Below are positions 2,123 through 25,430 of a stretch of 26,211 nucleotides of DNA, in pieces. Origin of the DNA: a virus. Under the pieces are notes generated by a model. That model had not been told where the DNA came from and ran no database searches. It was given only the letters and a program-made list of their open reading frames with translations. The number at the start of each line of letters is the position of its first letter. Position 1 is the first letter of the stretch. Location of the stretch: the IMG/VR virus record IMGVR_UViG_3300047388_000085, positions 1 through 26,211 of that record; one strand, 5' to 3'. The translations under genes were made by a program, and so were the position numbers.

Positions 2123-3172
2123 ATGCTGAAATACTCCGCTTTCGGATGGGCCGCGGGTGACGACGCGTGCGCGTTCTACCGCCTAACCCTGCCCTTCCTG
2201 GCACTCAAAAACACGTACGGCTGGGAAGTCGCGACATCATTCGCAATGACCGATGCTCCGAAGAATGGTCACAATATCTTCGCTTCCCAGCGCGTCGCGC
2301 TACCGTACCCGCAGAAGCAATGGATAGCCGCGTGCGAGTCCGGTCGCTGGCGCACCGTGTTTGACATGGATGACGACGTGTGGTCAATCCCGCCGGACTC
2401 CGCGGCGTATTCAGGCTGGAATTACGTCGACATGCAACAGTCGGTAGAGGTGTGCACAACGTTCGCCGATGTCGTGACCACGACAACGCCCGCGCTGGCC
2501 GAGATTCTGCACGGGCTGAACCGTGACGGGAACGTGCACATCCTGCCGAACTGCGTGACTCCGGCATTGCTCAAGGCCAAGCGGACGCCGCATGCCGGCA
2601 TCAATGTTGGGTGGGGAGGTTCAGCCACCCACCGCGGCGACTGGCGCCCGTACGTGAGGGGCATCTTGGCGGGTGTGAGCGAGTCGCCAGGCGCACGGCT
2701 GATCCTGCGTGGCGCGAACTATCTCGGATCGGCCGGCGGACCGTACGCCGATATCGTGGAGGAACGCCCATGGGTGAAGGGCGTAACCGACTTCTGGCAG
2801 ACGTACGCCGATATCGATATCAACTTGGCGCCGCTGAAACAAACGCCGTTCAACGAGTCGAAGTCGTTTATCAAGGTTTTGGAGGCGGCCGCATGGGGGA
2901 TTCCTACTGTTGCGAGCGATGTTGGACCGTACCGGACTGCCATTGCGCATGGTGTAACGGGATTGCTCGTTACGTCCGCCGAAGAGTGGCGCGAGTCTAT
3001 TCGGCGACTCGCCATGGACAAGCCTTATCGCCTCCAGCTAGGGAGCAACGCTCGGGAATGGGCGAAGAAGTACACGATTGACAAGTGGGTGGGCAAGTAT
3101 TATGAGCTCTACACAACAGGAGATTGTCGGGATACTCGATACGTACCGCAATACCTATCTGATTCCGTGTGA
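2123..3172 (+). CDS. glycosyltransferase, GT-B fold (GT4-like), 349 aa
   Basis: Transfers a sugar from an activated donor to an acceptor that the sequence does not reveal. The start is ATG 2123, with GGAG seven bases upstream; an earlier in-frame start would run through the hairpin at 2059-2104. The N-terminal half has FDMDDDVWSIP and a second-domain opening at NVGWGGSATHRGDW. The C-terminal half carries the GT4 donor-site block FNESKSFIKVLEAAAWGIPT followed by VASDVGPYRTAI and HGVTGLLV. The length fits the family. It is the first gene of a module with an epimerase, two more transferase-like proteins and a cytidylyltransferase. No membrane segment is visible, so it is probably cytosolic. Fold and class are clear; donor and acceptor are unknown. 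Confidence 0.85.
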   Translation: MLKYSAFGWAAGDDACAFYRLTLPFLALKNTYGWEVATSFAMTDAPKNGHNIFASQRVALPYPQKQWIAACESGRWRTVFDMDDDVWSIPPDSAAYSGWNYVDMQQSVEVCTTFADVVTTTTPALAEILHGLNRDGNVHILPNCVTPALLKAKRTPHAGINVGWGGSATHRGDWRPYVRGILAGVSESPGARLILRGANYLGSAGGPYADIVEERPWVKGVTDFWQTYADIDINLAPLKQTPFNESKSFIKVLEAAAWGIPTVASDVGPYRTAIAHGVTGLLVTSAEEWRESIRRLAMDKPYRLQLGSNAREWAKKYTIDKWVGKYYELYTTGDCRDTRYVPQYLSDSV

Positions 3173-3275
3173 GTGCACGGCGTGCGGATACATGGTCGCG
3201 GCTAAGCCTGGCAAAGAAGACACAGCGCTTTGCGAGAAGTGCATGAAGGAAAGGCTAGGGATCGAAGATGGCTAA
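3102..3275 (+). CDS. small zinc-ribbon protein, 57 aa
   Basis: ATG start with GTGGGTGGG upstream. It overlaps the end of the glycosyltransferase gene by 71 bases in another frame and the start of the epimerase gene by eight bases. After a short helix (MSSTQQEIVGILDTYRN) comes a four-cysteine metal site: CECTACGYM and, 20 residues later, CEKCM. Two CxxC pairs of this spacing are a zinc ribbon. It could bind nucleic acid or act as an adaptor. The long overlap is unusual, but no later start would keep the first residues. Function unknown. Confidence 0.65.
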   Translation: MSSTQQEIVGILDTYRNTYLIPCECTACGYMVAAKPGKEDTALCEKCMKERLGIEDG

Positions 3276-4173
3276 GACAGTTCACGTCACGGGAGTATAC
3301 GGGTTCCTCGGAGACAAGTTCGTGGATCACTTCGATAGGCTTGGATGGAATGTCGAGGGATCGGAATATAACGATTGCGAGCACCCAAACGCGCTGCGAA
3401 TGTTCCGCAAATGGGCGTACGGCAAGAAGCTACCCGATCTCGTCATTCACTGCGCTTCCCACATCGGCGGACGTGCGGGCATCGAGAACGATCGGTCGGC
3501 ACTCGCGGCGAACCTTCACCTCGACTCCGCGTTGTTCGCATCGCTGTCGGCGTTCCCCGACGTGCCGATCATCTACTTCTCGTCAAGCGCCGCATACCCG
3601 ACAACGTGGCAACGGAAGGAATCATCGCATCGCCTAAGCGAGGGTATGGCGATACGGTCTGAACTCGCCGATGCTGATTACGGTTACGCGAAAGTCATCG
3701 GCGAAAGGCTTGTTGAACGGCATCGGGCCATCGGTGGAGACGTGACAATGGTGCGCCCGTTCAGCGGGTACGGGATCGGGCAGTCGATGGACTATCCCTT
3801 CCCGAGCATCATGCATCGCGCGATCGATGGCGAAATACCTTTCAAGATTTGGGGCGACCCAACATCCTGCCGCGACTGGATTCACGTATCCGACATTGTT
3901 GGCGCGGTGGATGTGCTGCGCCAAGTCCCGAAAGACAAGCGACCGACTGTCGTCAATCTCGGAACGGGTATCGGCGTGGCAATGGAAACGCTGGCGCAAC
4001 TCGCATGGAACTATGCCGGCAACCGGCCGGAAGACTTCCGTACCGAGGCAGTTCCGGGCTCACCCTACGGCGTGCACACCCGGTATGCTGACGTCTCCCT
4101 AATGACGCGCTATTGGACTCCGAAGGTCGGCCTGACCGCGGGCGTCCGCGAGTACATTAATGCCATGACGTGA
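3268..4173 (+). CDS. NAD(P)-dependent sugar epimerase/dehydratase (extended SDR), 301 aa
   Basis: Nucleotide-sugar modifying enzyme of the extended short-chain dehydrogenase family, which includes UDP-glucose 4-epimerase and GDP-fucose synthase. Seen in the sequence: the Rossmann motif TGVYGFLG at about residues 8-15, SSSAAYP at about 109-115 (substrate serine), the catalytic pair Y-G-Y-A-K at about 139-143, then VRPFSGYG and DWIHVSDIVGAV, all at family positions. The length is normal. An AAGGAAAGG stretch precedes the ATG. It probably makes or alters the sugar donor used by the neighbouring transferases. The opening MAKTVHVTG and the SHIGGRAGI segment are closest in style to GDP-fucose synthase or GDP-mannose enzymes, but the exact reaction cannot be read from motifs. 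Confidence 0.85.
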   Translation: MAKTVHVTGVYGFLGDKFVDHFDRLGWNVEGSEYNDCEHPNALRMFRKWAYGKKLPDLVIHCASHIGGRAGIENDRSALAANLHLDSALFASLSAFPDVPIIYFSSSAAYPTTWQRKESSHRLSEGMAIRSELADADYGYAKVIGERLVERHRAIGGDVTMVRPFSGYGIGQSMDYPFPSIMHRAIDGEIPFKIWGDPTSCRDWIHVSDIVGAVDVLRQVPKDKRPTVVNLGTGIGVAMETLAQLAWNYAGNRPEDFRTEAVPGSPYGVHTRYADVSLMTRYWTPKVGLTAGVREYINAMT

Positions 4174-4174
4174 G

Positions 4175-4182
4175 GTTTAAAC
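4175..4182. promoter_or_regulatory. GTTTAAAC palindrome, copy 2 (between SD and start codon)
   Basis: It lies right after the epimerase stop codon and directly before the GTG at 4183. The likely Shine-Dalgarno bases GAGG (4172-4175) touch its left edge, so a bound protein would cover the start site. Confidence 0.55.
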
Positions 4183-4350
4183 GTGACCACTATCGACCGG
4201 CCGATCGATCCGGCCGTACACAGCATCATCGTCCGACTCCGTGACGTACGCGGGCGGCTTCCCACGCTCCCCCAACGCGTCGAGCTCGACGCCATCATGG
4301 CCGAGATTGCGAGGCTACGAAGTGACAACGGAACCGACACCGCCGAATAA
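4183..4350 (+). CDS. hypothetical protein, 55 aa
   Basis: GTG start directly after a GTTTAAAC palindrome, with GAGG eight bases upstream. The protein is a charged mostly helical peptide: TTIDRPIDPAVHSIIVRLRD followed by LPQRVELDAIMAEIARLRSD, which could form a short coiled coil. It overlaps the start of the next gene (4322) by 29 bases, as real genes do in this cluster. No family is recognised. It probably belongs to the sugar module by position only. Confidence 0.55.
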   Translation: MTTIDRPIDPAVHSIIVRLRDVRGRLPTLPQRVELDAIMAEIARLRSDNGTDTAE

Positions 4351-4618
4351 GATCGAGATCGAAACCGGTTCCGGGAAGATCACCATTGAGGGATGGAACG
4401 ACTACCCGCTCTCGGATGTGATTGCCCGCATAACGAGACTGTGGAGAGCCACAGTCGAGCGCGAGCGCAAGGACACTCCGGAGGATGTGAAGCCACAGCC
4501 GTTTGGCTTTACATTGGAAGACGGTAAGATAGTCACACTTGAAATCGTGACCGAAAGGGCAGAACCTGATGACGAGATTTCTGATGGCAACGACGATGGC
4601 GGCCTTTTACACGGATGA
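4322..4618 (+). CDS. hypothetical protein, 98 aa
   Basis: GTG start at 4322, with GAGG nine bases upstream and inside the end of the previous gene; the longer frame from 4241 has no ribosome-binding site. The protein has a beta-rich first part (IEIETGSGKITIEGW), a helix with basic residues (SDVIARITRLWRATVERERK), and a second strand pair (FGFTLEDGKIVTLEIVTERA), ending in an acidic tail. It overlaps the next transferase gene by 50 bases. Function unknown. Confidence 0.6.
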   Translation: MTTEPTPPNKIEIETGSGKITIEGWNDYPLSDVIARITRLWRATVERERKDTPEDVKPQPFGFTLEDGKIVTLEIVTERAEPDDEISDGNDDGGLLHG

Positions 4619-5348
4619 TCCCGACACGTGGGGAGCGTGGCTGTATCCCGCGGAATACATGGTCGCGGAAGCGATCCAACGCGGCGACGAGTTCGGCATT
4701 TTCGCGGCGCTGCAAGTCGACAAGCGAGGCATCGAACCATTCGCACCCTTGCTCGCCAGGTTCCGCGAGATCACGGACAAGTTTCCGAATGTCGAGGTTA
4801 AATGGTGGACGTATTCGCTCGATGACGGCCGTACGAAGGTGACCACACACAACCGGTTGCGACACATCACATGCGGTCAGAATCTCTGCAATGACTTCGC
4901 GGTCGCCGATGGGTACGACTACATGCTGTTTATGGCGTCGGACTGCGAACCGACCCATGACGCGCCATGGAAGCTTGCCGAAACCGGTAGGCAATACGAT
5001 GCGCATATCGTCGGTGGTCATGTCCCGACATACTGTCTCGATGGTCCGCCCGCGTGGTACGCGTTCAGCGAATACTACTCGCTAGCGGAAGGGCTATCCG
5101 ATCCGGGTAAGGACGTGCGTGCGCACATGCCCACCGCGGCGTTCGTCCAGCTTAACCGTGAGGCTTTCCGCCTACTCCGCTGGCGCTGGGATCTCGATGC
5201 CGGCATGTCGGATGATCCGTGCCTGTATGCCGACGCGACCGCCCGAGACATGATCGTTGTGGTTGACCATGAGGTAATCGGCCAGCACTACCCGGAGACT
5301 ATCGGTGCAGTCGAAACCCGCGGGCATGACATGAAGGTGGTGCGGTAA
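4569..5348 (+). CDS. glycosyltransferase-like protein, GT-A type, 259 aa
   Basis: Predicted sugar transferase. The ATG at 4569 is preceded by GAAAGGGCAG six bases upstream, the start signal shared with four other genes here; internal ATGs at 4584 and 4596 are less well placed. The core resembles nucleotide-diphospho-sugar transferases: CNDFAVADGYDYMLFMASDC, where SDCE is in the place of the metal-binding DxD, then IVGGHVP and a late segment LDAGMSDDPCLYADA that could carry the catalytic acid. No membrane segment is visible. Its position between the epimerase and the cytidylyltransferase supports the call. The family is divergent, so donor and acceptor are open. Confidence 0.6.
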   Translation: MTRFLMATTMAAFYTDDPDTWGAWLYPAEYMVAEAIQRGDEFGIFAALQVDKRGIEPFAPLLARFREITDKFPNVEVKWWTYSLDDGRTKVTTHNRLRHITCGQNLCNDFAVADGYDYMLFMASDCEPTHDAPWKLAETGRQYDAHIVGGHVPTYCLDGPPAWYAFSEYYSLAEGLSDPGKDVRAHMPTAAFVQLNREAFRLLRWRWDLDAGMSDDPCLYADATARDMIVVVDHEVIGQHYPETIGAVETRGHDMKVVR

Positions 5349-5503
5349 TGAAGCGAATCGATAAGGTTAACGAAGTTGCGGCTATCATCGGCGATTTCGA
5401 GTGGGGCAATTTCGGTCTCGATGACGTAGAGATGGCCGAATCGTCCGAGTGGGCCTATACACTCGCTGACGAAATCGTGGCCAGGGTGGAGGTGTGGGAG
5501 TAG
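5348..5503 (+). CDS. hypothetical protein, 51 aa
   Basis: The ATG overlaps the stop of the previous gene (TAATG) and its own stop TAG abuts the next ATG, so it fills the gap exactly. It is a small acidic protein with a helical start (MKRIDKVNEVAAIIGDFEW) and end (EWAYTLADEIVARVEVW). No motif is recognised. The tight fit between two enzyme genes is the main evidence. Confidence 0.65.
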   Translation: MKRIDKVNEVAAIIGDFEWGNFGLDDVEMAESSEWAYTLADEIVARVEVWE

Positions 5504-5980
5504 ATGTACGTATACACTGGCGGAACGTTCGACAACTTCCACCCTGGCCACGCTCACCTGATTCGACTTGGCTTGAAGCTTTCTCAAGTCGGCGGAGATG
5601 CGCTGTATGTGGTCGCCGTGAACTCTGACAAGTTCGTGCGCGACTACAAGGGGAGATGGCCGACGCAAAAGGCACACGAGCGCATGAGCGCGATTCGCAA
5701 TCTCTACCCGGATGCGCATGTTGTGCTGAATACGGGTGACGCGAACTCAACCCAAACGATCCAATACCTGCACGACAACCACCGTGCGGATGCGTTCGGC
5801 AAGATTCCACCGACGTACCGCCGGTACCCTGACGTCGTACTCGTGGGAAGCGACTGGGCAAAGTCCGACTATTACGCGCAAATGGGCTTCACTCAACTGT
5901 GGCTTGACGCGCGCAATATCGACATCATCTATGCCCATCGTGTTGGCGATTGGGCATCTAGCGCAATGCGGGATGCGTAA
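5504..5980 (+). CDS. cytidylyltransferase-like nucleotidyltransferase (TagD-like), 158 aa
   Basis: Activates a phosphorylated alcohol or sugar with a nucleotide, releasing pyrophosphate. The N-terminal signature YTGGTFDNFHPGHAHLI (about residues 4-20) contains the HxGH motif of the cytidylyltransferase superfamily. The middle has VVLVGSDWAKSDYY, matching the GDDW region of glycerol-3-phosphate cytidylyltransferases, and the end HRVGDWASSAM takes the place of their RTEGISTT motif. The start abuts the previous stop and the stop overlaps the next ATG. In this module it probably supplies a CDP-linked donor. Other members of the superfamily (for example pantetheine-phosphate adenylyltransferase) cannot be excluded, but context favours glycan synthesis. 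Confidence 0.8.
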   Translation: MYVYTGGTFDNFHPGHAHLIRLGLKLSQVGGDALYVVAVNSDKFVRDYKGRWPTQKAHERMSAIRNLYPDAHVVLNTGDANSTQTIQYLHDNHRADAFGKIPPTYRRYPDVVLVGSDWAKSDYYAQMGFTQLWLDARNIDIIYAHRVGDWASSAMRDA

Positions 5981-6639
5981 TGGCTGACGAGATCATCACG
6001 TTGGTTCCGGTTTCCTGGCGTCGCATTCCCGAGATGGTGCGCATGATCGATTCAATGAGCATTCCGCCGAATCGGGTTGTGGCTGTAATGGCCGGAAGTC
6101 CGACTTACCCCGATCCGCCATTTCGGTATTCACTATCTATCCACCACCTGATATCCCTTCCCTATACGGGAATGCGCATCGCGCAATGGTGGAACATTGG
6201 CCTCGACTACATAGAGCACACATGGCCGCACGCCGATTACATCTTCATGCCAGGCTCGGACGTGACCGGCAAGCCGGGCGCCGTGACCAGACTGGCCGAT
6301 GAGATGTCGAAGGAACGCGCCGTGATGGGTGGCCCGGCATGGTGGACTGCTGGCGAGAAACGAATCTGGTCCGCGGATGACCGGCGTGACGTGCACAGCC
6401 GCGTACCCGGTTCGTGCTTCATGATCGACGCGATTCACAGATTGCGGTGCGACGCGCGCTACCGGTGGTGGTATTCGGACGATGATCTAGAAATGCAAGC
6501 GCGTAGAATAGGGCCGGTCGGCGTGTTCCCCGTGGATATGTTCCACGACAACGGGACATCACTAACCGATGAACAGTCCGTGCATGCAATTCAGGATCGC
6601 GAGTACTTCGTGAATAAGTGGGGCCATCAACCCTGGTAA
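5980..6639 (+). CDS. glycosyltransferase family 2-like protein, 219 aa
   Basis: GT-A-type transferase by pattern. ITLVPVSWRRIPEMVRMIDS opens like the first strand and helix of the fold, ADYIFMPGSDVTGKPGAV holds the likely metal-binding SDV in place of DxD (about residues 86-103), and VPGSCFMIDA followed by YSDDDLEMQARRIG (about 165-178) carries the acidic acceptor-site motif common in GT2 enzymes. The last part, GVFPVDMFHDNG, fits the final strand with a conserved His. It starts at TAATG overlapping the cytidylyltransferase stop. It is shorter than bacterial GT2 enzymes but near phage ones. Third transferase of the module; substrate unknown. Confidence 0.75.
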   Translation: MADEIITLVPVSWRRIPEMVRMIDSMSIPPNRVVAVMAGSPTYPDPPFRYSLSIHHLISLPYTGMRIAQWWNIGLDYIEHTWPHADYIFMPGSDVTGKPGAVTRLADEMSKERAVMGGPAWWTAGEKRIWSADDRRDVHSRVPGSCFMIDAIHRLRCDARYRWWYSDDDLEMQARRIGPVGVFPVDMFHDNGTSLTDEQSVHAIQDREYFVNKWGHQPW

Positions 6640-6650
6640 GGCGGTAACCG

Positions 6651-6959
6651 GTGCAGCGTAGGGCTATGCTCATTCTGGTCACAATTCTAACCATGGCGTC
6701 TCTATTGAGTGCCGGCTTTCAGGCTATCCTTTTTCGCTTCCATGGCGCGGCGCAAACCGTCGTGGGGCTCATTCTCGTACCCTTCGCGTTTCTCTCCGTG
6801 GTTATGATCGCAAACCTCGCCGGGAAGCTGATCGATAAGTATGAGGAGAAGAAGGTAGAGAACATCATCAATCAGATGGAAGACGATGACGTTGAGCGAA
6901 TCACCCGAGTTCTCGAAAAGCGACGCGCCCGACGCGACGGCGAAATCACCGGACCCTGA
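6651..6959 (+). CDS. membrane protein with cytoplasmic helix, 102 aa
   Basis: GTG start with TAAGGCGG six bases upstream; ATG 6666 is a possible alternative. Two membrane segments lie at about residues 5-27 and 35-57, followed by a long charged helix (KLIDKYEEKKVENIINQMED and VERITRVLEKRRARR) that could be a coiled coil. The layout resembles small phage membrane proteins of unknown role. It ends the sugar module and overlaps the next small membrane gene by 74 bases. Confidence 0.7.
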   Translation: MQRRAMLILVTILTMASLLSAGFQAILFRFHGAAQTVVGLILVPFAFLSVVMIANLAGKLIDKYEEKKVENIINQMEDDDVERITRVLEKRRARRDGEITGP

Positions 6960-10508: not shown

Positions 10509-13156
10509 AGCTGCTCCTGAATGGACTGGTCACCGGCAACCGTCAGCGTAAACGACGCGGTCTGGCCACCGTAGTCGGCATCCGAAAGCTGCACGTTGTC
10601 AATCGACCCGCGGCAACGCCGCCCGCGGCCATCCCGATACGTCACCTGGCCCGGGTATGTCTCGTACGCTGCCCACGCTACGCGATCCGCGGAAGTGGGA
10701 AGCTCCAAGATGACATCGATTGAGCGAGTCCGCGCCGTACCTATTTGGATGTTCGGGAACTGGCGCCCTTCGAACTGAGTGAGCGACTTGACTACGCCGC
10801 GCTGCTCATTCTTGCCTTTCTGCACGTACACGAAGTTATAGGTACCGCTTACGGGATCAGACAGCCACACGCCAGTAAGCGTAACCACTGCGCCAGCGCT
10901 GTTTGAGTACGCTGATGTGAATTCGATTCCACCGAGCGTGCGTCGCGCACGCGAGCGATACGACCTGGCGACACCCGACGCCATGTCATAATCCACAAAG
11001 GACACAGTCGGACTGAGCGGATCAATCGGAAGTGACGCGAGCGTGTGCCAAGACGCGTCAATCGTGTTGCCCGGTTCCATGTACTCGATATCAATGTATG
11101 CAATACCGTTCTCGCCAATCCGCGGCAACCCTTGCTGCCAGGACTGGAGTGACAGTCCGCCTGTCGCCGCGCGCTTCACGACAGAGAGCCTGTCGAAGTA
11201 CATCGACTCGAACTGCGCCGTTGCCACGTACGTTTGGAGCTCGAAGTTCATGAACGCGGTACCGATCGGCGCAACCGTATAGATGCCGGACGCATCAGAG
11301 CTGAATGTCATATAGCCGCTAGACATGTCGTTCCATGCGGTTGTGCCGCCGCGACGAATACCGCCCGACGCCAACAATGTTAGGTTGCTATCGTAGAACT
11401 TCGTGATGAACTGACACTGTCCGCCGATCGTTGCCGGTGTGCCGTTCTCGATGCGCAACGACGCTGCTAGGGCGTATTGCTCATTCGGGTTGCATGGCAG
11501 GTAACCGCCCACCGGCCAGTTCGCGACCACTACGCCTGAACCCGATGCCGTGCGCGTAATCAATAGCGCTTGCGACCCTGGCCAACCAGTCTTTGATGTA
11601 CCTGTGACAACGGCCGTAGAGTTGCTGTCTGCCTTCCATTGCCCTCCCAAATCCTCGAAATCAGAGTTCGATGCGTCGATAAGGTTGGTACCTTGCAGAA
11701 CGAAACTCGGATGTGCCGCCGCGAAACCATCCCATAGGTTTTGCTGGTAGTAGAGCGCACCACCGCGGCCACCATCGTCGGGCGTGGCAAAGCTCCCAGA
11801 CTTAGGCGTGAACTGGATATCGTCAACATAGTGCACGAGCGAAGCGGCCGCGCTCGTGAAGAGAATTTCCATATGCGCCCATGCGGCCAACGCTGGCGCA
11901 GTCACGGATGCGGTAACGAGTTTCCATGTCGCACCGCCATTCTCGGCCACTGCGCCGCCACCCGACGTCGCGAGAGCCGCGCCCGTTGCGTCATACCAGA
12001 TAACGGCGAGCTCCACGTTTACCGCGCTAGCCGCGGGCGCCTGGCGCACATACATTGATGCGTAGTACGCTTGCCCCGGCGTAACCGGCGAATGAAAAGT
12101 CTTATTGACAATCTGCCCGGAACCCGATGATGGAAGCGTGACATTCATCGAGTACGGAGCACTGTGGAAAATGCTGCTCGATGGCGCGAGATTGACACCC
12201 GCGCTCGGAGTCCACTCTGATACCCCGCCATTCAACTGCGCATCATATGCTGAGAGGAGATTCTGCCCATGCTGCACAGTAATGGTTGCGTGATCACCCG
12301 ATGCGATTGCCGTCAGCTTAGGGATCGCATACGGCACCGATGCCATCGTGAATGAACCGGTCGTATTCCAGGGTGACCAGAAGTTCACCGCGGGTTGCTC
12401 AGTCGCGCCCGTCCACTGCTGCGACGTGCGAACCCAAAACGTGTACGCGGTATTGTCGGCCAGTGTGCCGGTCGGTACCTGGACCTGCGTATCCGCGGAA
12501 GCTACCTCGCCGGAATCCCATGTCAGCGACGCGCCCGCGTAAATCTGAACCTGGTAATGATCCTGCGAACTCAACCCATCGGGATCTGTGTACGACCATC
12601 GGATGATCGGATTCGGGTTGTCCGATACCGTTCCGGTCGGGGCGATGATGGTAGTCGTTGGCTGCTGATCGTACTGGATCTCGATCCAGACATCTTCGAT
12701 ACGCACGTCGGCACCGGCGCCGCCGAATCCAGCCATGTAAAGCTGGAAGTTATTGGCGTCCGACTGAGTGGCAAGCCTAGGCGTACCCGTGAGCCCATAC
12801 TGCCACTGCCCATAGTATGTGTTCGAATTGCCGTTGAGCTGAATGATGTTCAGGATTTTGTAGTCGTTTCCGAGGCCGCCATTTTCACGGATCGAGAACG
12901 AAACCTTGCGCACAAAACTCGCGTTGGTTCGGATGCCGCGGATAACCGGGCGCCAGGCGTAGAAGCGCGAGCCTGCCGGCACCACCGGATCAGCCATGTT
13001 TAAACGGATGTAGTCGGAAGTGTGGCCAGTCGGAGACACATACGAAGCGTCCGAGGCATCCGAGAGCGCAGCCTCACCCGATGCTGCGCCCGTCGTAGCA
13101 ATGCCCGAGAACGCCGCGGTTGTCACGGGCCGGATCGTGACCGTGGAGAATCCCAT
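10505..13156 (-). CDS. large minor tail protein with Fn3-like and carbohydrate-binding-like domains, 883 aa
   Basis: Large beta-rich tail protein directly after the tape measure, the place of distal tail or receptor-binding proteins. ATG start with CGGAGC upstream; four-base overlap with the next gene. Residues about 165-275 resemble a fibronectin type III domain (TTIIAPTGTVSDNPNPIIRW to AYTFWVRTSQQW). Two later stretches, about 310-455 and 490-660, look like CBM4/9-type jelly rolls, with HSAPYSMNVTLPSSGSGQIV and PGQAYYASMYVRQAP in the first. The last 100 residues (SDPVSGTYNFVYVQKGKNEQ and YRDGRGRRCRGSIDN) look like a tail-attachment part. It probably binds sugars on the host surface. A GTTTAAAC copy (12998-13005) encodes R-L-N near residue 51. 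Confidence 0.75.
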   Translation of the reverse strand: MGFSTVTIRPVTTAAFSGIATTGAASGEAALSDASDASYVSPTGHTSDYIRLNMADPVVPAGSRFYAWRPVIRGIRTNASFVRKVSFSIRENGGLGNDYKILNIIQLNGNSNTYYGQWQYGLTGTPRLATQSDANNFQLYMAGFGGAGADVRIEDVWIEIQYDQQPTTTIIAPTGTVSDNPNPIIRWSYTDPDGLSSQDHYQVQIYAGASLTWDSGEVASADTQVQVPTGTLADNTAYTFWVRTSQQWTGATEQPAVNFWSPWNTTGSFTMASVPYAIPKLTAIASGDHATITVQHGQNLLSAYDAQLNGGVSEWTPSAGVNLAPSSSIFHSAPYSMNVTLPSSGSGQIVNKTFHSPVTPGQAYYASMYVRQAPAASAVNVELAVIWYDATGAALATSGGGAVAENGGATWKLVTASVTAPALAAWAHMEILFTSAAASLVHYVDDIQFTPKSGSFATPDDGGRGGALYYQQNLWDGFAAAHPSFVLQGTNLIDASNSDFEDLGGQWKADSNSTAVVTGTSKTGWPGSQALLITRTASGSGVVVANWPVGGYLPCNPNEQYALAASLRIENGTPATIGGQCQFITKFYDSNLTLLASGGIRRGGTTAWNDMSSGYMTFSSDASGIYTVAPIGTAFMNFELQTYVATAQFESMYFDRLSVVKRAATGGLSLQSWQQGLPRIGENGIAYIDIEYMEPGNTIDASWHTLASLPIDPLSPTVSFVDYDMASGVARSYRSRARRTLGGIEFTSAYSNSAGAVVTLTGVWLSDPVSGTYNFVYVQKGKNEQRGVVKSLTQFEGRQFPNIQIGTARTRSIDVILELPTSADRVAWAAYETYPGQVTYRDGRGRRCRGSIDNVQLSDADYGGQTASFTLTVAGDQSIQEQL
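12998..13005. promoter_or_regulatory. GTTTAAAC palindrome, copy 5 (inside the large minor tail gene)
   Basis: In frame it is read as CGT TTA AAC ATG (R-L-N-M), using a rare TTA leucine codon. Confidence 0.45.
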
Positions 13157-16100
13157 TAGTTGCTCCGCTTTCCACTGCCGCGCCGCGCGGCCTGAGCCAA
13201 GTTGTCGAAGAAGTCTTTCACGTCCTTGAATTCTTTCATGTCGGCCACGCTGATCTGCACCTTAATATCGCCGCTGAACTGATCGCCCGTCTTATAGTCG
13301 CGATTCTGCTCGCGCGATAGCACGCGCTCGCCGGGCGTTAGCAAGCCGGCAACTGTGTCACCATTGCCGCTACCCACTACCTCGCCACCGCGCGTGAAGC
13401 CGGGCGCGCCCAGCGCCTTCAACATCCGCATAGCCGAGAAAGTCTGCTGATCGTAGCGCTCCGGGAACGCGGAACGCTGCACCGCTTGCGCCAACAAACC
13501 TGGCGTACCGGGCCAAGGTTCATGCTTCCGCATCGCGTTCATGAAGTCGGTAGTCGCACCCGAAACTGACGTCGCGTTATTCCATCCCTGACTCGGTCGC
13601 TGCTGCAAGAACCCCTGCGAATCCCTATCGCCACCCGCTAGGTTTTGCATACCCGACTCCGCATAGCCGGCATCAAACAGCGCAAGTAGCTCTTGCTTTG
13701 TCGCGCCTCTCAATAGAGCTGTGGTAAGCGCCAGTTTCCCGACTGCCATTGAGCCCATGTTCGTACCGTCCGGCCCGGCCTTGCTGCCCACGATGCCGGG
13801 CAGTGCGTCCGCGAACTTCTGCAAGCTGTTGTGCATGATTGTCATCGGCAAAGGCTTGTTCGGAACTGCACCGACAAGCTTGTGCAAAAGACTCGCCACC
13901 CTGCCCAATGCCCATCGTGCGATCGGGTTGCCGCCAGAACCGCCCGGAATGAAGTTGTCGCCAGCCTCGGGAAGGTGACCGATCCTGGCGAAGTTGTCCA
14001 CCGACGTCGCGCCGCTACCCACTAGCACCGCGGGCGGTGTGGCCTCGAACGCCATGCCAGACAGATTGCCGGCAGTGTGGCCTACGGAACCGCCGCCGCG
14101 CTCCCCGGGGTTCGCCCACCCAACCGTGTACGTTCCCTTGCCCGGCTTGAAGAAGTCACCTTCATTGCCGGTCGAGAACGTGTGCTGATACGGCTGGCGG
14201 CCCACGAGGATGTTATACACGGCGGAAGTCAGACCGGAACAGTCGTACCCGTTCGGGCCGGCTGACGCCCATACGTAAGGCTTGCCCCGCTGCGCAGTCA
14301 CAAACGCCTTAGCGCTGTTCACCTTGTCGCCGATGGAACCGCCACCGGCAAACCCGAGCGAGAACCCGTGACCCATGTCGCCACCGGTACCCTTAGGCAC
14401 CATGCCGAACTTATTGATGTAGTCGAGCACGCCAACGCCGATGCTCTTGACCGACTTGGCCTTGATAACGAACTCGTTCCGGGAAAGCCTGGCATTGATT
14501 GAATCGCTCGTCTCGCTACCCGGACCGGTAACCATGCCGCCGGTTGCGAACTTCTGCGAGCCACCCATTTTGCCGAGCGCGGCCGCGACGGATCCGCCCG
14601 TGGCAAGCTTAGGAATGTCCGGGATCTTCGGGATACCGACCTTCGTAATCACCCAGTTGATGCCGTGAATGACGCCATCGAGTACGCCGATCACCGCATT
14701 GATTGCGATTTTCAGGCCGCTAATACCCTTATTCCATGCGCCCGAAATGCTCGCGCCCATCTTGTCCATGATCTGCAAGACTGTATGACTCATGGACTTA
14801 TAGACGCTGATGACCTTGTCATGAACCCACGTGACGGCCGCGCTAGTCCACTTCTTGATATTCTCCCCGGCGGTTTTGATACCGTTCGCCATCTTGTTCC
14901 ACACCGTAGATACGTCATGGCCGATCTGTACGAACCAATGGCCGACGTTCTTAACCCAGTTGATAAGGTTCTTAAACCATCCGACCAGTGTCTGAATGAT
15001 TCGAATCTGAAAACCGAACACGCTGATAGCCGCGCGCACCGCGTTCACAAGTATCTTCGCGAATATCACTACAAGCTTCAGCAGGATCGGCACGAGGAAC
15101 TTGAACAGCCATTGCCCGATAGTGAAGACAACCTTAAAGAAGAGTCCGAACTGATGACTGTTGTCCTGTACCGTTTTGATGAGTGGCCTTAGGACCTTCT
15201 CGGCCGTCTTGGCAACAGCTTCCGCGAAACGCAGGATAGCCGGCCATAGCTTCTCGCTGATCCAATGCCACATATCCTTGAGCGCCGGTACAAGCTTCTC
15301 TTTCAGCCACTCGCGGAAAGTCTTGCTTCGCGCGGCCGCAATCACAAACGCCGCTGCGAGCGCAGCAACCGCCAGCGCTACCCACCCTAGCGGCCCAGCG
15401 CTGAGTAGGGCAACGGCAATCTTCATCGCGCCCAATAGCGAAGTGAAGATCTGAATGGCCTTGTTCGCAGCCATGAACGCTAGGGCAAGCGTGATAACGC
15501 GCTTCCAGGGAATGCGCGAGATCAGGTCAAAGATCTGATGTATCTTCTCGATGCCCTTGGCTGAACCCGACCACTTCGCGAATGACGCCGTTGCCTTTTC
15601 GAGGTTCGAAACAAAGTTGCCTTGTCCGCCAACGTGAAAGATATTGAACAGCGCAATAGAGATGTTGCCAAGAATCTTGCCCCACAATGCGGCCTGATCT
15701 CCCGCGCGCTTAAAGAACCTTTCAAGTCGGCCCGAGTCGGTGGCCTTGTCCGTGATGCGCTGCAAGTGGAGCGACGCGTCAGCAACCCAATGCGCGAACC
15801 TTTGCAGCATCGGCGTTGCGGCTTTCGCCAAGTCGAGGAAGATGCGCAGCCACGAAACGCTCGCCGAACCGAAGTCAGTGAGTGCCTTTGACCCTCCACC
15901 GATGGTGGCCTTAAGCTGGGAAGCCGTGCGCTTACTGCCCAGCGTGTCGCCGAGTTTTGTTTCCGTTTGCCCGATCGAACCCGACAACTGTTTCGCGGCG
16001 AGGCTCAGCGTTGGGATCAGATTGCGTGCCTTGATGAGAATGTGGTCAAGTCCAGTCAGAACCGGCTTGACATCGAAGCGCTTGATAACTTGCTGCCAAC

Positions 16101-16806
16101 CCAGCATGAGGGTTGCCGTCTTCGCAACCTGCGGGTTTAAACGCCCGAGTTCCTCGCGCCACGCCAGGTTGGCCTGAGCCTGAGTCTTCGTTCCCTTCCG
16201 AACCTGGTCCATGAGAGCCGCATGGTCAGTCAACCCGGCTTTAAGCGGGCCGAGAGCCAAGTACACGGACCCAAACGCGCCAGCCACAGTCAGCAACGCG
16301 GGAGCGGCTACGGCGCTTGTGGTGGCCACCATGGAGAGCGAACCGGCTGTCTGTGCGATCGCGGGTGCGGCGGCAACGGCGGCCGCGGTCAGCTTGCCCC
16401 ACATGCCGAGACCGCCGAACGGGTTCGACAAGTTCGAAAGCAAGCTACCCTTCGTAACCTGATTCGATAGCTTATTGAACCGCGACGTGAAAGACTGCAT
16501 GCCTTTTTCGGCGGATTTGTCAAGCTCACGGCCGAATGAGTCGCCGATTTGCCGACCAGCGCGGGAAGCCTCATTCAGAACCGAGCGATCAGCCTTGATA
16601 CCGACATGGATCTTCTCGCCAGCCGATGCCTCGAAGATGGCGCGCCGAACCTCGCCGCGAAGCCCGCGCGAGTCGATATGCAAACCGACCTTCGCGTCAA
16701 CACCATCGGTCGCGGCGGTAACCTTCTCACGGATCTCACGGCGCAGACCGCTACCATCCGCATGGAGCTCAACCCATGCCGATCCGATGGTCACGCGCCG
16801 TGCCAT
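13156..16806 (-). CDS. tape measure protein with two cell-wall-enzyme-like domains, 1216 aa
   Basis: Sets tail length and passes through the tail during DNA entry. ATG start with GAGGTGG upstream, next to the tail chaperones. The N-terminal 150 residues are charged, then alternating Ala-rich and hydrophobic segments follow (for example PAIAQTAGSLSMVATTSAVA and GPLGWVALAVAALAAAFVIA, the latter near residue 465). Around residue 835-930 there is an NlpC/P60-like peptidase region, GKPYVWASAGPNGYDCSGLT with the Cys and, 50 residues later, SVGHTAGN with the His. Around 1035-1090 a lysozyme/transglycosylase-like segment, AGYAESGMQNLAG and QGFLQQRPSQGWNN, holds a candidate catalytic Glu. Both could open peptidoglycan at infection. 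Activity is inferred from motifs. Confidence 0.9.
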   Translation of the reverse strand: MARRVTIGSAWVELHADGSGLRREIREKVTAATDGVDAKVGLHIDSRGLRGEVRRAIFEASAGEKIHVGIKADRSVLNEASRAGRQIGDSFGRELDKSAEKGMQSFTSRFNKLSNQVTKGSLLSNLSNPFGGLGMWGKLTAAAVAAAPAIAQTAGSLSMVATTSAVAAPALLTVAGAFGSVYLALGPLKAGLTDHAALMDQVRKGTKTQAQANLAWREELGRLNPQVAKTATLMLGWQQVIKRFDVKPVLTGLDHILIKARNLIPTLSLAAKQLSGSIGQTETKLGDTLGSKRTASQLKATIGGGSKALTDFGSASVSWLRIFLDLAKAATPMLQRFAHWVADASLHLQRITDKATDSGRLERFFKRAGDQAALWGKILGNISIALFNIFHVGGQGNFVSNLEKATASFAKWSGSAKGIEKIHQIFDLISRIPWKRVITLALAFMAANKAIQIFTSLLGAMKIAVALLSAGPLGWVALAVAALAAAFVIAAARSKTFREWLKEKLVPALKDMWHWISEKLWPAILRFAEAVAKTAEKVLRPLIKTVQDNSHQFGLFFKVVFTIGQWLFKFLVPILLKLVVIFAKILVNAVRAAISVFGFQIRIIQTLVGWFKNLINWVKNVGHWFVQIGHDVSTVWNKMANGIKTAGENIKKWTSAAVTWVHDKVISVYKSMSHTVLQIMDKMGASISGAWNKGISGLKIAINAVIGVLDGVIHGINWVITKVGIPKIPDIPKLATGGSVAAALGKMGGSQKFATGGMVTGPGSETSDSINARLSRNEFVIKAKSVKSIGVGVLDYINKFGMVPKGTGGDMGHGFSLGFAGGGSIGDKVNSAKAFVTAQRGKPYVWASAGPNGYDCSGLTSAVYNILVGRQPYQHTFSTGNEGDFFKPGKGTYTVGWANPGERGGGSVGHTAGNLSGMAFEATPPAVLVGSGATSVDNFARIGHLPEAGDNFIPGGSGGNPIARWALGRVASLLHKLVGAVPNKPLPMTIMHNSLQKFADALPGIVGSKAGPDGTNMGSMAVGKLALTTALLRGATKQELLALFDAGYAESGMQNLAGGDRDSQGFLQQRPSQGWNNATSVSGATTDFMNAMRKHEPWPGTPGLLAQAVQRSAFPERYDQQTFSAMRMLKALGAPGFTRGGEVVGSGNGDTVAGLLTPGERVLSREQNRDYKTGDQFSGDIKVQISVADMKEFKDVKDFFDNLAQAARRGSGKRSN
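16135..16142. promoter_or_regulatory. GTTTAAAC palindrome, copy 6 (inside the tape measure gene)
   Basis: Flanked as GGGTTTAAACGCCC. In frame it is read as CGT TTA AAC (R-L-N). Confidence 0.45.
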
Positions 16807-24524: not shown

Positions 24525-25430
24525 CTACTTAGGCGCAGTGAGTAGCGCCTTGATTTCGGCAATGGCTGTCTTCAACTCCGCATGCTCTTGATGGAGCTTG
24601 GCAACCTCGCCGCTCAACTCCGTGATACGATCGTTGGCCTGCTTGGCGTGCAGCCAAGTGTCGAACCACTGACCGCCCACGGTTTCGCCCGGAGTACCCT
24701 TCGCAGCACCGAACGGGTTGTTATCCGAGAACTTCACATCTTCACCTCCACTCGTATCAATCACGGGTTGAGATTGCCCCATGAAGTAGGTTCGCCCGAG
24801 ACGATAGCTCAGATCGCAGTCCTGACCGAGTACCTTGATCCCGTTCTGAACCTGAAACATTGACGCGCGCTTGTCCAGATAGAACTTGCGCGAGAAGTTC
24901 GGGATGCTGACGAGCTCGGCTGTGGTCGGCACGAATCCACCGTAGTAACCCGACCACGCGTAAGCTTGCCAGCCGTCGTCAATCAAGCCGTTGTCGAAAC
25001 AGTATTTGATCCACCAGTAGCCGCCGTACTCACCCATGCGGTAACCGGAACCGTGAACGACGTTCCTAGCAGCCTTCACGTAGGCGGTATAGGCCGGGTA
25101 ATCGGCGTGCTGCACGTCGGTGTCGCCGGTCGAGAACGGGATGGTGCAACCGGCCGTGTAGTGGGTTTCCTGCGCCAGCCTGACGGCCTCGCGCGCGTGA
25201 GCCTCACCCTTCACTGCGCCGCCCGCGCCATCCTGCGAAGCCTGCTCCCAGTTGAGCGCCAAGAGCAGACCTGCGCCGCGGATGGCGGCCGTCTCCTGCG
25301 GATGGTCGATTGCCTTGCCGTTGGGCAGGTAGCAGAGGTAACGCAGCACACCCTCATACCCGAGACGTGCGACCGCCTTCTGATCGGGCCGGCCGTACGA
25401 GTAGTCCAGCCACTTCGCAAGAACCTTCAT
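24525..25430 (-). CDS. endolysin with DUF1906 (Rv2525c-like glycoside-hydrolase) domain, 301 aa
   Basis: Predicted cell-wall hydrolase for lysis. ATG start; the AGGG just upstream runs into a GTTTAAAC palindrome, which ends one base before the ATG. Residues about 2-215 form the DUF1906 barrel: KWLDYSYGRPDQKAVARLGY, GVLRYLCYLPNGKAID, LLLALNWEQASQDGAG, CTIPFSTGDTDVQHADYPAY and the late WQAYAWSGYYGG with QDCDLSY, whose Asp and Glu residues sit where TIM-barrel hydrolases have catalytic acids. The last 45 residues form a coiled coil (ANDRITELSGEVAKLHQEHA). No classical wall-binding domain is seen, so the coiled coil may bring subunits together. Confidence 0.8.
   Translation of the reverse strand: MKVLAKWLDYSYGRPDQKAVARLGYEGVLRYLCYLPNGKAIDHPQETAAIRGAGLLLALNWEQASQDGAGGAVKGEAHAREAVRLAQETHYTAGCTIPFSTGDTDVQHADYPAYTAYVKAARNVVHGSGYRMGEYGGYWWIKYCFDNGLIDDGWQAYAWSGYYGGFVPTTAELVSIPNFSRKFYLDKRASMFQVQNGIKVLGQDCDLSYRLGRTYFMGQSQPVIDTSGGEDVKFSDNNPFGAAKGTPGETVGGQWFDTWLHAKQANDRITELSGEVAKLHQEHAELKTAIAEIKALLTAPK

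Follow-up and report, generated by a model that had tools for sequence, protein, structure and literature searches.

In the literature consulted here, virion glycosylation has been reported for only a few mycobacteriophages; these modify their capsid and tail-tube proteins with transferases of their own, and the modification shields the particles from antibodies (PMC12363180). One such locus is gp108-110 of mycobacteriophage Che8 (Freeman et al. 2023, as cited in PMC12363180). The window analyzed here is a 26.2-kb fragment of the virus record of a soil-type phage, for which a megablast search against phage records returned no match. On its plus strand, at 2123-6639, it carries five neighboring enzyme genes predicted to prepare and attach sugar-like groups, together with small ORFs.

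As in Che8, overlapping transferase genes form a run outside the structural operon of an actinobacterial siphovirus, and the two loci probably share a common purpose. Where an actinophage virion-glycosylation locus of the Che8/Corndog kind is recognized by at least two glycosyltransferase genes per run, the window has three transferase-like genes, one (GT4) assigned by family score and two by motifs and a low-confidence fold. Unlike the window, the Che8 stretch that we examined has no adjacent SDR nucleotide-sugar epimerase/dehydratase or TagD-like nucleotidyltransferase (NTase), and profiles of the GT4, GT2-like, and GT-A-like (GTA) transferases of the window scored about 10 bits or less against Che8 gp108-110, with hhalign probabilities below 10. 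The Che8 transferases have a weak similarity to those of the window at the GT-A level only and are not orthologous to them. Judged from its sequence, the window cassette would be a variant of the virion glycosylation known from actinophages that shares no orthology with the Che8 locus and has a putative virion acceptor and a putative sugar.

Gene content of the run

An earlier note had read three transferase-like proteins, an epimerase/dehydratase, and a TagD-like NTase in one run, and this was borne out: all five frames are open from an ATG to the stop that it gave, and the families or fold hints agree. The first gene (2123-3172, plus strand like all that follow) encodes a 349-aa GT4-type glycosyltransferase (GT-B) that matches Pfam Glyco_trans_1_4 (E 4.4e-11; 43.6 bits against a gathering score of 27) and the glycosyltransferase family phrog_7162 (E 2.4e-47), and shares 36% identity with gp5 of Streptomyces phage Zuko and gp6 of KimJongPhill. 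The 301-aa SDR (3268-4173) matches PF01370 (E 8.6e-24; 84.7 bits against a gathering score of 20.9) and phrog_540 (E 1.5e-35). Its family keeps the Rossmann TGxxGxxG motif and the S/Y/K active site (SSS, YGxxK), and its best PDB profile matches are GDP-mannose 3,5-epimerase and GDP-fucose synthetase. A small Cys4 zinc-ribbon-like ORF (3102-3275, with an alternative longer start at 3078; CxxC...CxxC, DZR_2 at a weak 0.0026, under the cut-off) overlaps the end of GT4 and the start of the SDR gene.

The two remaining transferases, GTA (4569-5348, 259 aa) and the GT2-like (GT-A) protein (5980-6639, 219 aa), had no significant family match as single sequences. The GTA family has invariant residues D125, D215-D216, and H240, but no Pfam or PHROG match (13.5 bits against PF00535, whose cut-off is 23.3), and its sequence matched nothing in the PDB at E<=1. 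The best fold match of its model is a GT25 collagen hydroxylysine galactosyltransferase (9EVJ; Foldseek E 6e-6), a likeness at the level of fold class only, given a TM-score of about 0.4 and a low-confidence model (mean pLDDT 53). We found 57 GTA loci in IMG/VR. In bacterial genomes, a search with alignment A1 found nothing, and one with alignment A7 found one prophage-like locus in Micromonospora (L337); the family was absent from 298 further genomes of the order of Micromonospora. GTA looks like a new, phage-restricted family by these searches. The GT2-like protein has the GT-A features but no Pfam match, PF00535 included. It shares the invariant pattern SDV...WWYxDDD...H with its counterparts in contig L032 and Zuko gp108, the latter falling just below the PF00535 cut-off (22.5 versus 23.3). 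Its model (mean pLDDT 54, low confidence) matched POMGNT1 (Foldseek E 1.8e-7) and many other GT-A enzymes, so that for both orphan transferases the GT-A fold is suggested by Foldseek matches from models at mean pLDDT 53-54.

The overlapping starts and stops that had been described hold for four groups, namely GT4/zinc ribbon/SDR, ORFx/GTA, GTA/o51, and NTase/GT2, the last through a shared TAATG at 5978-5982; the overlaps indicate coexpression. The stretches at 4174-4568 and 5349-5503, however, are occupied by small ORFs missing from the original list. These are o56 (4183-4350, 55 aa; an open frame only, preceded by a GTTTAAAC site), ORFx (4322-4618, 98 aa), and o51 (5348-5503, 51 aa; an open frame only, TAATG-coupled to GTA). 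ORFx overlaps the start of GTA and has no family match; a weak resemblance, 29% identity over the aligned part, links it to a small ORF next to the epimerase-GTA pair of another contig (L149). No sigma-70 promoter was found within the gene run. A strong GC hairpin without a U-tract lies just upstream of GT4 (2059-2109; MFE -40.9 kcal/mol and z -2.8 for the region 2040-2130) and is a possible operon boundary. On the 3′ side of GT2, a small membrane protein (6651-6959; hydrophobic segment KD 2.58, weak PF13796 under the cut-off) is a putative, unproven member of the module.

Related cassettes among head and packaging genes

Related cassettes, written below with GTA for the GT-A-like family, NT for NTase, EPI for epimerase, and MT for methyltransferase, recur among head and packaging genes, as observed over cassette loci alone. 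In the viral contig L259, GT4..GTA-NT-GT2 lies between the prohead protease and MCP genes, retaining four of the five window enzymes in the same order. L032 carries GT4-NT-GT2-GT2b between portal/MuF and scaffold/MCP, with an MCP of a different family (phrog_267), and GTA..EPI immediately precedes the MCP gene in both L002 and L283 (phrog_777 in the latter). Upstream of packaging genes we found GT4-EPI-GTA before TerL-portal in L337 and GT4-GTA-MT-EPI upstream of TerL in L298; the GT4-GTA-MT-EPI set occurs with overlapping genes in about 20 contigs. An MCP-GT4-GT2-NT-connector arrangement was present in 37 contigs, which are not independent because they form one lineage at 60% NTase identity. 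An epimerase lies within 3.5 kb of GTA in 37 of the 60 GTA loci. Local profiles placed head genes near 14 of 81 modules, an undercount because the MCP profiles are lineage-limited, and this tally is given no weight either way. The phages with related cassettes span several capsid families. The window and a relative (L324) both carry the cassette on the plus strand, distant from the head genes and facing the tail genes, and in Arthrobacter phage Racecar the related set lies among other genes. The recurrence of this enzyme set in phages that are not related to one another leads us to regard the run as a real functional unit beyond chance.

Among isolates, Zuko and KimJongPhill are the best relatives of the window GT4 (36%) and GT2 (about 30%), and their MCPs are among the best isolate matches to that of the window (37.5% and 36.9%). 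Neither has a GTA match, and Zuko differs from the window in having two loci: one, SDR-GT4, precedes the terminase, and the second, 2OG oxygenase-GT2-methyltransferase-GT2, lies near the opposite end. Zuko gp4, named a UDP-glucose dehydrogenase and considered as a clue to UDP-GlcA, proved to be an SDR. Streptomyces phage Moab (gp77-79) and Racecar (gp174-179) have transferases immediately followed by an NTase of the same subfamily (38-40% identity) but, unlike the window, no adjacent SDR of the window type.

Candidate acceptors

We read the run as a virion-glycosylation cassette, with a probability of roughly 0.6. The SDR would turn an NDP-sugar, probably supplied by the host, into the sugar desired by the phage, and the TagD-like NTase would produce a second activated donor. 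One transferase would then add the first residue to a side chain on some abundant protein of the virion, most likely of its head, and the remaining transferases would lengthen or branch the glycan. The phage's own shell proteins are the most likely target because, in several phages unrelated to one another, related sets adjoin genes for the capsid or for packaging. Neither the window nor the Zuko stretches examined contain collagen-like Gly-X-Y repeats that could serve as acceptor, and no convincing Ser/Thr-rich C-terminal tail was seen on MCP or tail tube. This failure to find an acceptor sequence weighs against the virion reading, as do the positions of the cassette in the window, L324, and Racecar, the lack of orthology with the Che8 transferases, and the shared lineage of the 37 syntenic contigs. 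The earlier note had slightly favored proteins or surface glycans; the gene neighborhoods and the absence of PF00303 from most relatives back the proteins, whereas no positive evidence emerged for the host surface.

Modification of the host surface, whereby the wall glycan or teichoic acid of an infected or lysogenized actinobacterium would be altered and superinfection blocked, is the best of the alternatives but an improbable one. Bacterial TagD produces a precursor of teichoic acid, and an apparent prophage (L337) contains a related cassette. Phage transferases are also known to change host serotype (PMC12619734), but gtr-like serotype conversion involves a membrane-bound transferase and a flippase, and the run has neither: all five enzymes lack membrane segments, and genes for a flippase, a GtrB-type protein, or a polymerase were not seen. 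The repeated adjacency of related cassettes to head genes likewise argues against it.

Slightly less probable still is a loose assortment of auxiliary genes, unrelated to each other, that serve differing acceptors and form no single pathway. Component combinations do vary between phages, with NT-GT2, GT4-EPI, and GTA-EPI recombining freely, yet L259 holds four of the five genes in the same order and the overlaps speak for coexpression.

Glycosylation of DNA occurs in other phages. The transfer of sugars onto hydroxymethylated bases to evade restriction is doubtful here, and is not favored because genes of the thymidylate-synthase fold (PF00303), the fold of base hydroxymethylases, are missing from most cassette-bearing records (the complete Racecar and Moab genomes, both with related sets, and 14 of 15 further records, mostly fragments); one record (G010) has such a gene, and the ThyA-like gene of Zuko adjoins those for dTMP kinase and dCMP deaminase, with which it makes up an ordinary dTMP set. 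The window, as noted earlier, shows no thymidylate-synthase homologue, but this is weak evidence because the window is a fragment of the virus record. A TET/JBP search found nothing but, run without a positive control, is uninformative.

The NTase and donor supply

The NTase (5504-5980, 158 aa) matches PF01467 (E 8.6e-9) and phrog_7878 (E 1e-19). The profile of its family matches Bacillus subtilis TagD, a glycerol-3-phosphate cytidylyltransferase, over the full length (1COZ; E 1.6e-24) and keeps HxGH. The phage signature DYYxQMGFTxxWL is lacking in TagD, and the window NTase lacks the exact RTEGISTT. An HldE/ADP-heptose pathway, suggested by the PHROG name of the match, may still apply, but the family aligns with TagD over its whole length and neither a sugar kinase nor a phosphatase was seen as a partner. 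The window NTase scored 35 bits against the HldE C-domain equivalog TIGR02199 (cut-off 181). NTases of the TagD/HldE fold act on substrates of the glycerol-3-P, ethanolamine-P, or heptose-1-P type, not on ordinary hexose-1-phosphates. The earlier claim that the module suffices for making a donor is not supported, because the NTase is of the TagD/HldE fold, far below the TagD equivalog cut-off (14 bits against 165 for TIGR01518), and the window has no kinase or RmlA/GalU-type enzyme.

Some sister cassettes include a 2OG-Fe(II) oxygenase next to a transferase of the same family. It is a speculative and unlikely extension that the NTase might make a CDP-polyol or similar phospho-donor instead of a sugar nucleotide, so that the capsid would bear a teichoic-acid-like phosphorylated glycan mimicking the host wall, and that with the oxygenase-bearing cassettes hydroxylated residues would carry the glycan, as they do in collagen. 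To our knowledge, no phage shell has been described whose glycosylation is teichoic-acid-like or depends on hydroxylation.

Phage virion glycosylation is already known; the gene set and one enzyme family, GTA, look new. The recombining cassette, which recurs near head genes of phages with several capsid families, predicts virion glycosylation for many more phages, and the products of GTA and its unusual NTase partner are open to assay. The prediction is directly testable because the sequenced isolates Zuko, KimJongPhill, Moab, and Racecar carry related cassettes; that of Racecar also includes a DUF932 gene.

Enzymes of the module

The module lies on the + strand of this 26.2-kb fragment of a virus record, as does the first gene on that strand, for a PDDEXK nuclease; the genes for portal, scaffold, HK97-type major capsid protein (MCP), tail tube, tape measure and minor tail proteins lie on the - strand. 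The five enzymes listed in the earlier note, a GT4 transferase (2123-3172), an SDR epimerase/dehydratase (3268-4173), a GT-A-like protein (GTA; 4569-5348), an NTase (5504-5980) and a GT2-like protein (5980-6639), are genuine open frames with these boundaries, but the list omitted a zinc-ribbon-like ORF (3102-3275) and three small ORFs between the enzymes (4183-4350, 4322-4618 and 5348-5503). The GT4, zinc-ribbon and SDR genes overlap, as do the 4322 ORF and GTA, GTA and the 5348 ORF, and NTase and GT2, which suggests co-translation. A strong GC-rich hairpin lies upstream of GT4. GT4 and SDR passed Pfam cut-offs and the NTase passed that of PF01467; family searches with the proteins at 4569 and 5980 gave no significant match.

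TagD (1COZ) aligns end to end with the NTase family profile (E 1.6e-24). The profile also matches ethanolamine-phosphate cytidylyltransferase, and the window protein falls well short of the equivalog thresholds for both TagD and HldE. Seven aligned phage NTases share the signature DYYxQMGFTxxWL. This ambiguity in the NTase substrate weakens the proposal that the module can make its own sugar donor. The family containing 5504-5980 and its relatives, phrog_7878, is named 'heptose 7-phosphate kinase/heptose 1-phosphate adenyltransferase', which is probably over-specific given the end-to-end match to TagD.

The 4569 protein is called GT-A-like rather than a GT2 member because PF00535 membership was not found. 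Searches of Pfam, PHROG and NCBIfam gave no matching model for its family; the predicted structure, of low confidence, matches GT25 and glycogenin-type GT-A enzymes, and Asp125, Asp215-Asp216 and His240 are invariant in the four members compared. Relatives occur at 57 IMG/VR loci and in one prophage-like Micromonospora locus; a further 298 genomes from the order to which Micromonospora belongs contained none. This Micromonospora relative and the window MCP, closest to Streptomyces phages (Zuko, 37.5%), make an actinobacterial host likely. Locus L283 carries two GTA paralogues in one cassette (4431-5177 and 6258-6956), with an HNH-like ORF between them and the MCP gene immediately downstream.

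In the 5980 protein, SDV, WWYxDDD and a late His are invariant in alignment with L032 and Zuko gp108, and its predicted model (mean pLDDT just 54) matches GT-A enzymes such as POMGNT1 (E 2e-7). Next to their window-type GT2 gene, Zuko-type phages encode a 2OG-Fe(II) oxygenase (L005 3823-6315; L260, L262, L264, L266, L268, L276, L089 and L279); in most of them a methyltransferase and another GT2 are present there as well. The oxygenase matches PF13640 (E 3e-15; L089 copy, 6e-14), and its position suggests hydroxylation-dependent glycosylation in those phages.

Genomic setting and acceptor

Several related sets lie beside head or packaging genes. L259 (one contig with L321) reads prohead protease-x-GT4-x-x-GTA-NT-GT2-MCP, where x is another ORF and NT the NTase, and L032 reads portal-MuF-GT4-NT-GT2-GT2b-scaffold-MCP (phrog_267). 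About 20 contigs of lower G+C carry overlapping GT4-GTA-methyltransferase-EPI genes (EPI, SDR epimerase), followed by terminase in L298; L283 has GT4-GTA-MT-x-GTA-EPI-MCP (MT, methyltransferase; MCP phrog_777), L002 GTA-MT-EPI-MCP, and the Micromonospora locus GT4-x-EPI-x-GTA-TerL-portal. Terminase immediately follows the set in L088 and L248. A further 37 contigs, a single lineage whose GT4 and GT2 are just distant relatives of the window's, read MCP-GT4-GT2-NT-connector. The set lies close to tail genes instead in L250, L252 and L261, and L324 resembles the window in layout, with nuclease, GT4 and GTA-NT followed by tail genes that converge on them and belong to the window's tail-gene families. 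Zuko gp4 (L004 1319-2380) and Arthrobacter phage Racecar gp163 (L003 1-1064), annotated 'UDP-glucose dehydrogenase', match the SDR epimerase/dehydratase families PF01370/PF16363, a probable misannotation.

Enzyme activity, sugars, transfer order and acceptor are all inferences. A virion protein would be the favoured acceptor, because related enzymes border head genes in phages of at least three PHROG capsid families; in the window and L324 the set lies away from such borders. The host surface is a possible acceptor, but one for which we found no positive support. DNA is less likely, as PF00303 genes are absent from the complete Racecar and Moab (Streptomyces phage) genomes and from 14 of 15 further records.

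Mycobacteriophage Che8 likewise carries its transferases, gp108-110, away from head-gene borders, at the right genome end, and PMC12363180 reports glycosylation of its virion proteins. Phage-encoded glycosylation of actinophage virions is already a known kind of system. What appears new by sequence comparison is a set not orthologous to that of Che8, with an additional SDR and NTase, and a GTA family outside the three model collections searched.

Other features of the window

An Rv2525c-like glycoside-hydrolase-like gene (24525-25430, - strand; PF08924, E 7e-12) is possibly a lysin; it sits with two small ORFs between the portal and MuF-like genes, an unusual position for a lysis gene. The tape measure (13156-16806, - strand) has an NlpC/P60-like motif at residues 841-866, under the Pfam cut-off, and also matches the endolysin family phrog_971.

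The palindrome GTTTAAAC occurs in nine exact copies (2006, 4175, 7077, 8300, 12998, 16135, 18767, 25432 and 26015), against 0.16 expected from dinucleotide shuffles and 0.05 from a trinucleotide Markov model, under which it is by a wide margin the window's most enriched 8-mer. None of the relatives compared had comparable enrichment. The copies are both intergenic and intragenic, and may be regulator, segregation or immunity sites.
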